Assembly: GCA_001897435.1 (NCBI GenBank)
Contig: MKSV01000004.1
Span: 434,001-498,000 of the forward strand
DNA: 64,000 bases
Source: Acidobacteriales bacterium 59-55
Lineage (GTDB): Bacteria > Acidobacteriota > Terriglobia > Terriglobales > Acidobacteriaceae
Direction: 5' to 3'
The notes under the pieces were generated by a model, which saw nothing but the letters and a program-made list of their open reading frames with translations, was not told the origin of the DNA and searched no databases. Positions 56,841-60,757 of this stretch are shown in pieces (the first letter of the stretch is position 1; each line of letters starts with the position of its first letter). Position numbers and translations under genes: made by a program.

Positions 56841-57437
56841 ATGAGCAATATCAACGGCAAAGTTTATGCCATGAATGCGATCACGCCTATGAAGCCATGG
56901 AAGACATGGATTCTGCGCGGATTCTTCTTTGTGCTCGGGCGCGTGAAGCCGCTGCAACAAGACCTGATTAATCTGTCCTTCATCGAATTCGCTCGCTGGG
57001 TCGTTCTGCCGCGCAGGGGATTCCCTTTTTTAGGCAATGGGCAGAAAAGGGAAGAGCTTCAGTACGACTATCTCCTGTTCTTCAGCAACTTCAACGGGAC
57101 TTGGAATCAATACATCGATGCGTTTTCAGCGGTGCTGAGTCGTGGCCTGAACCTGATCTGGCGTTGGAGCGAAAAGTTTCCCGGCTCCGTGCCTGTGACC
57201 CCTTTCAAGAATTACATTGCACAGGTGCAGTTCGACACGGACTACTACTACACTGCCTATCCTCGGGCCACGGCAAACGATCTCAAGTCCGCCCATATCG
57301 TGCAGACTTCGCTGGACGCGCTCAGCCTTCGTGCTCAGGATTACACGCCGGCGCAGTTCGCGGAGGCCTACCTCCACTTCGTGATCCAGGTGCAGGCGCA
57401 TCTGGGCGAGACGGGCGACGCTCCCGTGGTGTTCTAG
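56841..57437 (+). CDS. Hypothetical protein A of the DyP-P450 operon
   Basis: A 198-residue protein of unknown function. The N-terminus has a hydrophobic/aromatic segment (TWILRGFFFVLG, about residues 22-33) that could touch a membrane. The central part (FFSNFNGTWNQYIDAF, then LIWRWSEKFPG, then FDTDYYYTAYP) matches, motif by motif, a part of the next protein (SNFDGELDDYL, SIWGHCVAYPG, IDTTFYFAAIN). The two are therefore distant paralogues. First gene of a four-gene unit: 8 bases to the next gene. I cannot name the family. Confidence 0.7.
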   Translation: MSNINGKVYAMNAITPMKPWKTWILRGFFFVLGRVKPLQQDLINLSFIEFARWVVLPRRGFPFLGNGQKREELQYDYLLFFSNFNGTWNQYIDAFSAVLSRGLNLIWRWSEKFPGSVPVTPFKNYIAQVQFDTDYYYTAYPRATANDLKSAHIVQTSLDALSLRAQDYTPAQFAEAYLHFVIQVQAHLGETGDAPVVF

Positions 57438-57445
57438 GAAAATCC

Positions 57446-58078
57446 ATGCCAAATAAAAGCGGCAGTCTTTATGGCCTTACGATTCTTTCGCCCATCATCG
57501 ACGATGAGAAGGCGACGCCTTCGCACGACCTGCAAATTCGTAAATATCTTGCAGGTCTGGCGACCGATGACGGGAGTCCCTTCGCGCTTGCGCCCGGCAC
57601 GCATCTTGCCAGGCTGGTGGTGATGGACGACGTCATCTACGTCGGGATGCCTGCGTGTGAAGAGCATCTCAAATCGAAGTATTTGGTGCTCGAATCCAAC
57701 TTCGACGGCGAACTGGATGACTATCTGGGTGGCCTTGCCGATCATGTGCCGGAACAACTGGATTCGATCTGGGGGCACTGCGTCGCTTATCCGGGCGCGG
57801 GCAACCGGCAGGCATTCATCGACTATATGAAGGCGTGTCAGATCGACACGACGTTCTACTTCGCGGCGATCAACGATAAGTCGTTGCCGGAGACGTTGCG
57901 TGCCCTGCATACGCGAACTGCCGTGGCGGACTTTATCGCAAACCATCAGGGAATGGAACCGGCGCGGTTGCAGGCTGAGTTTGTGCAGTTCGTCGCTCAA
58001 CTACGCTCGGAGCCCATTCCGGGGCCGGGGACAGGCGGAATCGCTCGCGATATCAAGACTGGCGGTCGAAATGAGTAA
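57446..58078 (+). CDS. Hypothetical protein B, paralogue of protein A
   Basis: A 210-residue soluble protein sharing the order of conserved motifs with protein A: SNFDG, IW..., YPG, F-x-x-Y, D-T-x-F/Y-Y. No catalytic signature or signal peptide. AGGA precedes the ATG at 57446. Its last eight bases overlap the start of the DyP gene (ATGAGTAA), so translation of the two is linked. Position suggests that it forms a complex with, or delivers substrate to, the peroxidase or P450; this is inference. Confidence 0.7.
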   Translation: MPNKSGSLYGLTILSPIIDDEKATPSHDLQIRKYLAGLATDDGSPFALAPGTHLARLVVMDDVIYVGMPACEEHLKSKYLVLESNFDGELDDYLGGLADHVPEQLDSIWGHCVAYPGAGNRQAFIDYMKACQIDTTFYFAAINDKSLPETLRALHTRTAVADFIANHQGMEPARLQAEFVQFVAQLRSEPIPGPGTGGIARDIKTGGRNE

Positions 58079-59456
58079 GCTGAACGCTACAGACATTCAG
58101 GGATTCGTTCTGCGGGGATACAACCTTCCGGTTGGGCGGTATCTCTTCCTGCATCTTGAAGATGCAACTCGTGCGCGCAAGATGATTGGGCAGTTGCTGG
58201 GACAGGTGACGACTGGCCAGCGCTGGGACGGCGGCAAGCCGGACAGCACCATGAACATTGCGTTTACGCACAAGGGATTGGCTGCGCTGGATCTACCGCT
58301 TGCTACGCTGATTACCTTTCCCGTTGAGTTTCAGGACGGTATGAAGGAGCGCTCCGGGATTCTGGGCGATACCGGCTTGAATGCGCCGGAGCGCTGGGAC
58401 GATGTCTGGCGCGGCGACCGGGTTCATATGTGGCTGGGCGTCAATGCGAAGTCGCCGGAGGCGCTGGAAGCGCGCTGCGCAAAGTTGCTGGCCACGATTC
58501 AGGAGAGCGGCGGAGCGACCCTGCTCGGTTCACAGGATGCCGCTGCCGTGGTCATCGACGGCAAGCCGACGACGCGCGAACACTTCGGCTACACCGACGG
58601 CTTTGGCAATCCGGAGTATCTCGGAGTCGAGCGAAGCTCGCAACCTGGGCAGGGCAAGCTGCTGGCGGATGGAACCTGGGCGCCACTAGCGACTGGAGAG
58701 TTGCTGCTCGGGTACGCCGATGAGGCGGGCGAATTACCGGTGGCGCCGGTCCCTCATCTGCTCGCAGCCAATGGGACATTCATGGTCTATCGTAAGCTGC
58801 ACCAGAATCTCGCAACCTTTCGCGCCTACCTCGACGAGCAGGCTGCGTTGTATGGTGGCGGCAAGGAGAAGCTGGCGGCTAAATTTATCGGTCGCTGGCG
58901 GGATGGGACACCCCTCGAACTCTCACCCGACAAGCCGGATTTCCCCCTTACACAGGACCCGAAGCGGAGCACTAACTTCACCTACGGTGCGGACCCCGAA
59001 GGTACTCGCTGCCCGCTCGGCGCGCACGTCCGCCGTGTACATCCCCGCGACGACTTCGGCTTCCATGGCAAATTGATCGACCGCCGCCGCATCACTCGTC
59101 GCGGGCTGCCCTATGGAGCCTTTGTTCCCGAGGGCGAGCCGGTCTCCGATTCGGAGGATCGCGGGGTTATCTTCATGGCACTCAACGCCAGCATCTCACG
59201 CCAGTTTGAGTTTGTGCAGCAGCAGTGGATCGGCTATGGCAACGATGCACATCTGGGAAACGATAAGGACATGCTGATCGGCAATCACGGCGGACGCGGC
59301 AGGTTTGTCGTGCAAGGCGATACCAGGCCGGAGAATCCACCGTTTATATGTAGCAACATGCCGAACTTTGTTGAACTGCGCGGCGGGGAGTACTTCTTTT
59401 TGCCCAGTATCACCGCACTGGGAATGATTGCCCTGAGTCTTGTAGACCCACGCTAG
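58071..59456 (+). CDS. DyP-type haem peroxidase
   Basis: A 461-residue dye-decolourising-type peroxidase without signal peptide. The distal GxxDG motif is GYTDG (173-177, with Asp176), and the proximal haem ligand His319 lies in CPLGAHVRRVHPR. A later distal Arg region is RRGLPYG. The usual NPR after the His is HPR here. The length and insertions resemble the longer (C/D or V) DyP subfamilies. It overlaps the upstream gene by eight bases and lies eight bases before the P450 gene. Cytosolic location without an encapsulin gene nearby makes a biosynthetic or lipid-hydroperoxide role plausible. Confidence 0.9.
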   Translation: MSKLNATDIQGFVLRGYNLPVGRYLFLHLEDATRARKMIGQLLGQVTTGQRWDGGKPDSTMNIAFTHKGLAALDLPLATLITFPVEFQDGMKERSGILGDTGLNAPERWDDVWRGDRVHMWLGVNAKSPEALEARCAKLLATIQESGGATLLGSQDAAAVVIDGKPTTREHFGYTDGFGNPEYLGVERSSQPGQGKLLADGTWAPLATGELLLGYADEAGELPVAPVPHLLAANGTFMVYRKLHQNLATFRAYLDEQAALYGGGKEKLAAKFIGRWRDGTPLELSPDKPDFPLTQDPKRSTNFTYGADPEGTRCPLGAHVRRVHPRDDFGFHGKLIDRRRITRRGLPYGAFVPEGEPVSDSEDRGVIFMALNASISRQFEFVQQQWIGYGNDAHLGNDKDMLIGNHGGRGRFVVQGDTRPENPPFICSNMPNFVELRGGEYFFLPSITALGMIALSLVDPR

Positions 59457-59464
59457 GAGAACGA

Positions 59465-60757
59465 ATGAGCCTGATCGACAATCTTAAGAGCACGCTTGAG
59501 AAGATGGAATCCTCCGGCAGCTTTCACTTTGCGCATATCGAGTCCGAGGTCATGGAGATGCTCGAACGCGCCAAGCAACACGTGCTCGACAACCCGGAGC
59601 CCGTCTTCGCCATTTTGCGGCGCATCAAGCCGGTGCTGATCGTGAAGAATATCGCTCTGGTTACGCGCTTCGACGATGTGCAGGACGTGCTTGTACGCGA
59701 CGACATCTTTCAGGTGACCTACGGGGAGAAGATGCGCGTCGTTACCGGAGGAAATGATTTCTTTCTGGGGATGCAGAATTCGCCGGAGTACGAGCGCGAT
59801 ACGACGCATATGCGGTCGGTCATCCGGCGCAGTGATATCGCGGATGTGATTGCCCCTTTCGTCGCGAACGCGGCGAAGTCGATTGTGGATTCGGCGGCGG
59901 GCGGCCTGGATGTCGTCTCTCAACTGGGTTTGGTTGTTCCTACGCGGCTGGTAGGCGCGTACTTCGGCACGAAGCCGGTTTCAGAGACGGACGTAGCAGG
60001 CTGGGCCAGCACCATCTTCCAATATCTCTTCACCGACCTGAACAACGATCCTGCTGTCGATGCCGCGGCAAGAGACGCTTCCGCCCGCACCCGGGCGTGG
60101 CTCGATGACGCGATCAAAGAGGTGAAGAGTCGGGACGCGTCAAAGCGGGAAGACACAGTGCTGACGCGCTGCCTCGCGTTGCAGGCTGCGGGACTTCCCG
60201 GAATGACGGACGTGGACATTCGCAATAACCTGCTCGGCCTGCTGGTTGGCGCGATTCCAACGACCTCCAAATGCTGCGCGCAGGCACTCGACGAACTATT
60301 GAAGCGGCCTGCCGAGTTGGCGAAGGCACAGGTCGCCGCGCGGACAGGGGACGACGCCACCTTTGCGCAGTATGTCTTCGAGGCACTGCGTTTTCACCCG
60401 AACAACCCCGGAGTCTTCCGTGTGGCTGCCGAGGAGTATGTCGTAGGAAAAGGGCAGATGCACGCCACGCGCATTCCTGCGGGGACCTCCGTACTGGCAG
60501 CGACCCAGTCGGCCATGTTTGACGAGCGTGTGGTGGAGTCTTCGAAGGAGTTCAGGATCGACCGGCCGGCGTACAACTATATGCATTGGGGCGTGGGACT
60601 TCATACCTGCTTTGGACAGTACATCAATCAGGTGCAGATTCCCGGCATCCTGAAGCCCCTTTTGCAGCGCGGCAACCTGAGGCGGGCAGATGGCGACGCA
60701 GGCACGCTCAAGTTCGCCGGTCCCTTCCCCTCGTCGCTGGGGGTACAGTTCGACTAA
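59465..60757 (+). CDS. Cytochrome P450 with atypical I-helix
   Basis: A 430-residue soluble P450. The haem-thiolate motif is HWGVGLHTCFG with Cys382, and the K-helix ExxR is Glu306-Arg309 (EALR). The I-helix reads VGAIPTT (261-267): Pro265 replaces the acidic residue of the usual acid-alcohol pair, while Thr266 is kept. That pair delivers protons for oxygen activation, and its loss is known in peroxygenases (CYP152 has Arg-Pro) and in hydroperoxide-rearranging P450s. No ferredoxin or reductase gene is near. I infer peroxide or hydroperoxide chemistry in partnership with the DyP. The start codon follows a GGAG overlapping the DyP stop. Confidence 0.9.
   Translation: MSLIDNLKSTLEKMESSGSFHFAHIESEVMEMLERAKQHVLDNPEPVFAILRRIKPVLIVKNIALVTRFDDVQDVLVRDDIFQVTYGEKMRVVTGGNDFFLGMQNSPEYERDTTHMRSVIRRSDIADVIAPFVANAAKSIVDSAAGGLDVVSQLGLVVPTRLVGAYFGTKPVSETDVAGWASTIFQYLFTDLNNDPAVDAAARDASARTRAWLDDAIKEVKSRDASKREDTVLTRCLALQAAGLPGMTDVDIRNNLLGLLVGAIPTTSKCCAQALDELLKRPAELAKAQVAARTGDDATFAQYVFEALRFHPNNPGVFRVAAEEYVVGKGQMHATRIPAGTSVLAATQSAMFDERVVESSKEFRIDRPAYNYMHWGVGLHTCFGQYINQVQIPGILKPLLQRGNLRRADGDAGTLKFAGPFPSSLGVQFD

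Follow-up and report, generated by a model that had tools for sequence, protein, structure and literature searches.

A bacterial gene module of paired A/B proteins, a DyP-type peroxidase and an exchangeable P450, with a possible role in lipid-hydroperoxide metabolism

Known peroxidase-P450 couples and the operon of Acidobacteriales bacterium 59-55

In the fungal dioxygenase-P450 fusions of the linoleate diol synthase type, a heme peroxidase-family enzyme is joined to a P450 that is, as far as known, self-sufficient (PMC13049297). Catalase-related hydroperoxide enzymes are found fused to a lipoxygenase or a heme dioxygenase (PMC5617202, PMC11719350), and the Pseudomonas oleate diol synthase consists of RoxA-like di-heme cytochromes (PMC4496055). 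The present analysis concerns a four-gene operon of the soil acidobacterium Acidobacteriales bacterium 59-55, located in a 64,000-nucleotide stretch of contig MKSV01000004.1 (the window), that encodes two paralogous proteins, A and B, a DyP-type peroxidase and a cytochrome P450 with an atypical I-helix. Its relatives define a bacterial module that is widespread and apparently undescribed: no DyP-P450 gene module, A/B family or link between A/B and DyP was found in the open-access literature, which was surveyed in part. The DyP and P450 families are known, as are couples of P450s with other peroxidases, while the family formed by A and B, the association of that family with DyP and the module as a whole are apparently new.

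The locus shares with the fungal fusions a heme peroxidase-family enzyme adjacent, or in relatives fused, to a P450. There, however, the first enzyme is cyclooxygenase-related (An_peroxidase), whereas here it is a DyP with the A/B proteins, of predicted function; a Pfam scan of the four window proteins found no An_peroxidase (PF03098). A P450 and a catalase-like protein appear as alternative second enzymes, much as plants and corals differ, the plant P450 in this position being CYP74. Unlike the catalase-related parts of the described fusions, the bacterial catalase-like proteins considered here are very divergent.

All four genes lie on the forward strand. Protein A (198 aa, 56841..57437), whose predicted fold is of moderate confidence, is followed by protein B (210 aa, 57446..58078), recognized by its paralogy with A, then by the DyP (461 aa, 58071..59456), assigned with PF21105, PF20628 and TIGR01413, and the P450 (430 aa, 59465..60757), assigned with PF00067. 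The intergenic gaps are +8, -8 and +8 bases. An earlier interpretation made from the letters of the window (the sequence-only reading) had proposed this order and spacing, and both the coordinates and the gaps were confirmed.

Distribution of the module and its core

The association was counted among relatives of the P450. An alignment scan covering 84,980 species, each by one genome, gave 276 of them, and the best 80 were used. An A/B-family gene, split or fused, and a DyP accompany the P450 at 64 of the 80 loci; among these, the A/B part of L079 is no more than a truncated B-like piece, that of L046 is one short gene, and L076 has A and B in one open reading frame (ORF). Six further loci, four with DyP only and two with A/B only, are cut by a contig end on the missing side. 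The remaining 10 have neither partner nearby, but their genomes carry an A-family gene in 10/10 cases (weakest E 4e-10), and in the seven for which the A-family region was fetched a DyP lies beside it or is fused to it (7/7). The A gene of L084's genome appears, from its coordinates, to be that of L094, the same organism's second module with a P450 of its own. The order A-B-DyP-P450 was found at 34 loci plus the window, AB-DyP-P450 at 14 and P450 first at eight, and at four loci (L058-L060, L098) the core lies on the strand opposite the P450.

The 80 loci fall in eight NCBI phyla: 63 are from Pseudomonadota, seven from Acidobacteriota, two each from Planctomycetota, Myxococcota, Actinomycetota and Armatimonadota, and one each from Cyanobacteriota and Chloroflexota. 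Complete A/B, DyP and P450 sets occur in seven phyla, a count that excludes the truncated Chloroflexota contig, which hardly differs from another contig, labelled Alphaproteobacteria; many of the records are metagenome-assembled genomes, and individual taxon labels may be wrong. The sequence-only reading had called for counting this co-occurrence in Acidobacteria and other phyla and had staked itself on conservation beyond close relatives, which holds. A chance neighbourhood is ruled out by the scan together with the following census of A-family genes.

Profile matches to A were found in 9/297 Acidobacteriota genomes (E 1e-8) and, in the class to which an Undibacterium belongs, in 4/185 genomes (E 1e-5), counts that include the search centres G000 and G381, known beforehand to have A. 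In 13/13 of these genomes (11/11 without the two centres) a DyP adjoins A/B or is fused to it. A P450 adjoins or is fused in five (the window's own genome, L157, L158 and the fusions L159 and L155), a catalase-like gene is nearby in three (adjacent in L156, about 3 kb off in L038 and L160), and neither is present in the other five (G014, G029, G031, G381, G564). On Sphingomonas, Agrobacterium and Acinetobacter plasmids an A-family gene, a DyP and a catalase family gene are consecutive. These catalase-like proteins exceed the Pfam Catalase cut-off in one of five scanned, and for two of them no solved relative was found by sequence.

Closer relatives gave the same picture. At E 0.001, a B relative was present in 10 of 100 related genomes: the window's own, seven congeners with A and B adjacent, and G018 and G057, which have a two-domain AB protein. 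The order A-B-DyP is kept in 7/7 split congeners, in none of which was a P450 found within the 12-16 kb examined, and at E 1e-20 the P450 was found in the window's own genome and in none of the other 99. Because the P450 is absent there, A-B-DyP is taken as the core and appears to work without it; in the window the P450 would reflect either a gain or a loss in the congeners. The core of the module is thus A/B and DyP, and the P450 is an optional partner that appears exchangeable with a catalase-like protein. The sequence-only reading of a self-contained four-gene pathway is refuted as a general rule by the seven congeners.

Other arrangements occur within the genus and beyond. The congener loci L038, L039 and L160 represent a second kind of cluster, in which AB-DyP is accompanied by a catalase-like protein, a protein of about 146-168 aa without assignment and a GMC oxidoreductase, the last assigned by a Pfam scan of the L160 protein. 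One congener, G035, has an An_peroxidase gene (PF03098, E 3e-105) closely upstream of A-B-DyP (L035, 9358-11265). On the Granulicella tundricola plasmid pACIX901 (L029, 5394-12630), A-B-DyP has no P450 beside it; genes for a TonB receptor and a regulator of the Fur family come next, and then katG.

Natural fusions tie the A/B, DyP, P450 and catalase-like parts together. P450-AB-DyP single ORFs occur at L019, L026, L027 and L155, that is, on Novosphingobium, Pararhizobium and Sulfitobacter plasmids and at L155, and no reductase domain was found in them with the profiles used. DyP-P450 fusions are present at L066 (Neorhodopirellula) and L159, and a 1301-aa ORF of a Polyangia metagenome-assembled genome (L151, 2803-6708) joins AB (residues 9-460), DyP (480-961) and a catalase-like part (about 950-1300). 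The four fusion ORFs L155, L066, L159 and L151 contain no internal stops.

The A/B proteins and the two heme enzymes

A and B align over 191 columns with 22.5% identity (E 4e-11; tblastn against a small set of loci) and have in common the motifs SNFNG/SNFDG, IW, FPG/YPG and DTDYYY/DTTFYF, which bears out their proposed paralogy. Protein A has no Pfam or NCBIfam match, and for B the same scan returned one sub-threshold chance match and nothing else; searches of solved structures (PDB) by A/B-family sequence gave no convincing match. In these searches the proteins match no known family, as the sequence-only reading had anticipated in calling them unknown. The alignment of A comprises 28 of 44 homologues and the window's A (29), that of B 16 of 37 and the window's B (17), both omitting L058-L060; the fused AB alignment comprises 16 of 20 AB-labelled loci (L046, L097, L098 and L112 omitted). 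SNFNG, W88, Y91, D93 and Y136-Y137 of A are invariant across the 29 sequences. Residue 49 of the window's A (56841-57437) is Glu (FIEFARW), and His in the other 28 aligned homologues. From profile matches we infer that B would be the counterpart of the N-terminal domain of the fused AB proteins.

Modelled alone, the window's A has a beta-alpha-beta-beta-alpha-beta core with extra C-terminal helices at moderate confidence (pLDDT 71.8), too weak for a fold assignment (best Foldseek E 0.67, best VIA Z 5.9), and therefore a fused AB relative (L101:9179-10447) was folded instead. Its AF2 model, built with 16 sequences (pLDDT 84.7, pTM 0.83), comprises two beta-alpha-beta-beta-alpha-beta (ferredoxin-like) domains and an intervening part with a long hydrophobic helix (192-232), the end of that part being less sure (pLDDT 60-65 around residues 231-260). 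The top VIA-align match, covering both domains, is the ABM/SchA-like protein WhiE-ORFI (9lmn; Z 15.6, rmsd 3.8, 221 residues; Foldseek E 6e-6), followed by Abx(+)O (Z 11.7), 3mcs (Z 10.6) and 3f44 (Z 10.0); no DyP chain is among the structural matches listed, which thus lend no support to a close relationship between A/B and DyP domains. The predicted model of L101 is thus an ABM-like barrel of two ferredoxin-like domains, and by analogy the A and B pair should form two halves of one such barrel. The likeness to WhiE-ORFI and Abx(+)O is one of predicted fold: the fused AB proteins differ in lacking a sequence match, in their long inter-domain hydrophobic helix and in their association with DyP, and curated ABM and SchA-CurD sequence models gave no match at E 1 for A, B or the 16 fused AB proteins. 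A role as scaffold or carrier, proposed earlier, remains one option, but it is not the sole one for an ABM-like fold.

A 19-residue window above 1.6 on the Kyte-Doolittle scale is found in 16/16 fused AB proteins, in 5/29 A proteins (the window's A not among them) and in 0/17 B proteins. On these counts the fused proteins are probably located in the membrane, to which the split A and B of the window would be at most peripheral. The description of the pathway as cytosolic is accordingly doubtful, because all fused relatives carry the strongly hydrophobic segment, although the window's own A and B do not.

The DyP passes PF21105 (42.1 bits, cut-off 27.5), PF20628 (27.3, cut-off 20) and TIGR01413 (106.4, cut-off 100.5), and its closest solved relatives by sequence are 8re3 and 8re2, both named 'Peroxidase, putative'. 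In this family a catalytic Asp, a distal Arg and a proximal His are expected. All three are found in motifs that align with 8re3: Asp176 in GYTDG (58596-58598, +), His319 in GAHVRR (59025-59027, +) and Arg344 in RRGLPYG (59100-59102, +), the residue numbers having been counted by hand. In an alignment of 69 DyPs, the window's own and those of 68 scan loci, Asp and His are conserved in 68 and Arg in 66; the misses are L057, which is cut, L043, a short ORF lacking the Arg, and L111, in which the Arg is replaced by Cys. No N-terminal signal was seen by eye on the window DyP. DyP and P450 distances are correlated (Spearman 0.794; 0/999 permutations as high; 66 sequences), which fits joint inheritance or, equally, plain host kinship.

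The P450 scores 40.1 bits against PF00067 (cut-off 22.8) and retains the ExxR motif (EALR) as well as the Cys loop (WGVGLHTCFG); by alignment, Cys382 (60608..60610, +) is the heme-thiolate ligand. In its I-helix (GAIPTTS), Pro265 (60257..60259, +; GAIPTT) occupies the conserved acid position, giving Pro-Thr and not the conventional Asp/Glu-Thr, and the claim of an atypical P450 without the acid-alcohol pair is confirmed. Among the 80 scan P450s this site reads Pro-Thr in 56, Pro-Gln in 17, Asp-Thr in five, Glu-Thr in one and Thr-Leu in one, so that Pro holds the acid position in 73. CYP152 peroxygenases, which have Arg-Pro there, likewise have an altered pair but not a Pro at the acid position with the Thr mostly kept; no CYP152 entry is among the matches listed for the P450 (in one case the best 60 of 153). 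Disruption of the pair in conventional P450s disturbs normal O2-driven turnover (PMC9112060), and the Pro is consistent with use of peroxide by the P450. Acid loss as a module-defining trait is weakened, and is evidently not required, because six module P450s keep Asp or Glu and one further P450 of the scan has Thr-Leu. The peroxide-type P450 of the sequence-only reading is therefore plausible from the 73 relatives and is tempered by those six. In a quick tree with several long branches (duplicates L022 and L040 omitted), the six Asp/Glu forms and the Pro-Thr form L116 group with Glu-Thr sister P450s encoded near An_peroxidase or RoxA-like cytochromes.

A possible lipid-hydroperoxide pathway and its rivals

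These sister P450s have partners of two kinds. On Sinorhizobium medicae and Rhizobium etli plasmids (L020, 5911-8828; L025, 5917-8819), a Glu-Thr sister P450 directly precedes an An_peroxidase gene, a pair that would be a bacterial split counterpart of the fungal dioxygenase-P450 fusions. On Bradyrhizobium and Methylobacterium plasmids (L023, 3835-7194; L024, 2772-7227), a RoxA-like cytochrome is followed by the sister P450, with a regulator between the two in L024 and an oleate hydratase upstream in L023; this recalls the Pseudomonas oleate diol synthase, but the window's operon has no RoxA-like gene. Both the An_peroxidase and the RoxA-like cytochrome families include fatty-acid dioxygenases (PMC13049297, PMC4496055).

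Genes linked to lipids also adjoin the module itself. A glutathione S-transferase (GST)-like gene lies inside the module or no more than 1 kb from it at 25/80 loci and a patatin at 9/80, and neither was found in the farther flanks (4.6 times as much sequence), although the queries were taken from beside modules, which favours near matches. Three patatins and two GSTs were identified with Pfam, and the remainder were assigned by similarity to those. Six of the nine patatins are beside a lone P450 (Undibacterium and kin); the other three, two from Vibrio and one from Planctomycetota, accompany complete sets. In the Undibacterium group (L061, L063-L065, L071, L099, L147-L150) the P450 is found with a patatin, and A-B-DyP lies elsewhere in four genomes examined. 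A class 3 lipase (Lipase_3) is near 3/3 of L157-L159: in L157 and L158 its gene comes after that of the P450, and in L159 the DyP-P450 fusion has it 0.8 kb downstream. The acyl hydrolases near some members are of two unrelated kinds, as are the dioxygenase-containing families that partner sister P450s, and both may point to lipid hydroperoxides.

It is proposed, tentatively and with a probability of about 0.45, that the module is a membrane-associated, oxylipin-like lipid-hydroperoxide system with an A/B-DyP core and the P450 as follow-on enzyme. In this scheme A and B would pair up as one ABM-like alpha+beta barrel, here a heterodimer that is at most peripheral to the membrane and in many relatives a fused chain that is probably anchored in it; the barrel would partner an active DyP as the front part of a lipid-oxidation module. 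The core would make or handle lipid (presumably fatty-acid) hydroperoxides at the membrane, and the P450, a heme-thiolate enzyme that lacks the acid for O2 activation and is presumably self-sufficient and of the peroxide type, would form the back part and rearrange or use them; in other genomes a catalase-like hemoprotein seems to take its position. This arrangement is modelled on the dioxygenase-P450 and catalase-containing oxylipin fusions (PMC13049297, PMC11719350). The order of steps, and whether DyP or A/B would make the hydroperoxide, are part of the model; sequence alone cannot tell whether the front part makes or consumes it.

Several observations weigh against this pathway. No substrate or activity is on record for any member of the module, and DyPs are not known to make fatty-acid hydroperoxides. 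The P450 is missing from the seven congeners and from 99/99 other relatives, the six P450s that retain Asp or Glu all sit in A/B-DyP modules, a further one has Thr-Leu, and A alone gives a poor model. On the lipid side, the GST and patatin counts are not independent, many loci being close relatives (Nitrosomonas, Undibacterium), and Lipase_3 queries matched 0/80 scan loci. Seven loci, five of them Nitrosomonas, have a pyridine nucleotide-disulphide (flavin) reductase gene at a distance of 0.3-3.3 kb from the module or the P450. No GST, patatin or other lipase was recognized beside the window's own operon. The earlier idea of a lipid hydroperoxide thus gains circumstantial support from lipase and GST neighbours and from the sister-P450 partners, but not from the neighbours of the window's operon.

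The closest rival is detoxification, in which DyP, P450 or catalase-like protein and GST would clear stress-born hydroperoxides at the membrane, and patatin or lipase would excise damaged chains, with no signal or product. The catalase-like partners and the GST neighbours suit such a defence, as does the Granulicella tundricola set, which has katG and genes for a TonB receptor and a Fur-family regulator nearby. It is nonetheless less likely, in that the repeated pairing or fusion of the core with P450s of a single family suggests a defined substrate, and the peroxide usually accepted by DyPs is H2O2 and not a lipid peroxide.

A bolder form of the oxylipin-like pathway would make A/B and DyP a new lipid oxygenase, the membrane-held barrel and DyP inserting O2 into fatty acids and passing the hydroperoxide to the P450 or catalase-like partner. 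This is doubtful; if true, at least seven bacterial phyla would have a route to oxylipins that needs neither lipoxygenase nor cyclooxygenase-type enzymes. DyPs are common in bacteria, and their natural substrates are mostly unknown. The module gives one group of them a fixed context, with a new family as constant neighbour, a P450 or catalase-like partner and, in places, a lipase or GST gene; it also offers peroxide-type P450s with a natural peroxidase partner and makes DyP function directly testable.

The P450 might instead be a conventional monooxygenase, served by redox partners encoded elsewhere and merely co-transcribed with A-B-DyP. Asp or Glu at the acid position in 6/80, all in modules, Thr at the alcohol position in 56 more, the three P450 genes of the window's own genome and the flavin disulphide reductase near seven loci speak for this. 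It is rendered improbable by the Pro that replaces the acid in 73/80, with the alcohol also lost in 17, by the lack of a recognized ferredoxin among shared neighbours (ORFs of at least 90 aa called) and by the P450-AB-DyP fusions without a reductase domain; a loose six-frame search for 2Fe-2S-type ferredoxin motifs was uninformative (10/80 in real versus 5/80 in reversed sequence). Equally hard to credit is H2O2-driven tailoring of a non-lipid small molecule, with A/B binding or oxygenating the substrate like aromatic-polyketide ABM proteins, for while the top structural matches of fused AB are WhiE-ORFI (a polyketide ABM/SchA-like protein according to its entry) and the polyketide decarboxylase Abx(+)O, and an ABM protein has a non-catalytic role in type II polyketide synthase assembly (PMC6689052), a polyketide synthase was found in none of the 13 Pfam-scanned clusters.

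Those 13 were scanned by representative from the 18 neighbour clusters shared by at least four loci, which also include an ABC transporter (nine loci, mostly far), a prolyl oligopeptidase and regulators. At four loci (L049, 13184-13648; L058-L060), an SxtJ family gene (PF19588) lies 3-4 kb from the module.

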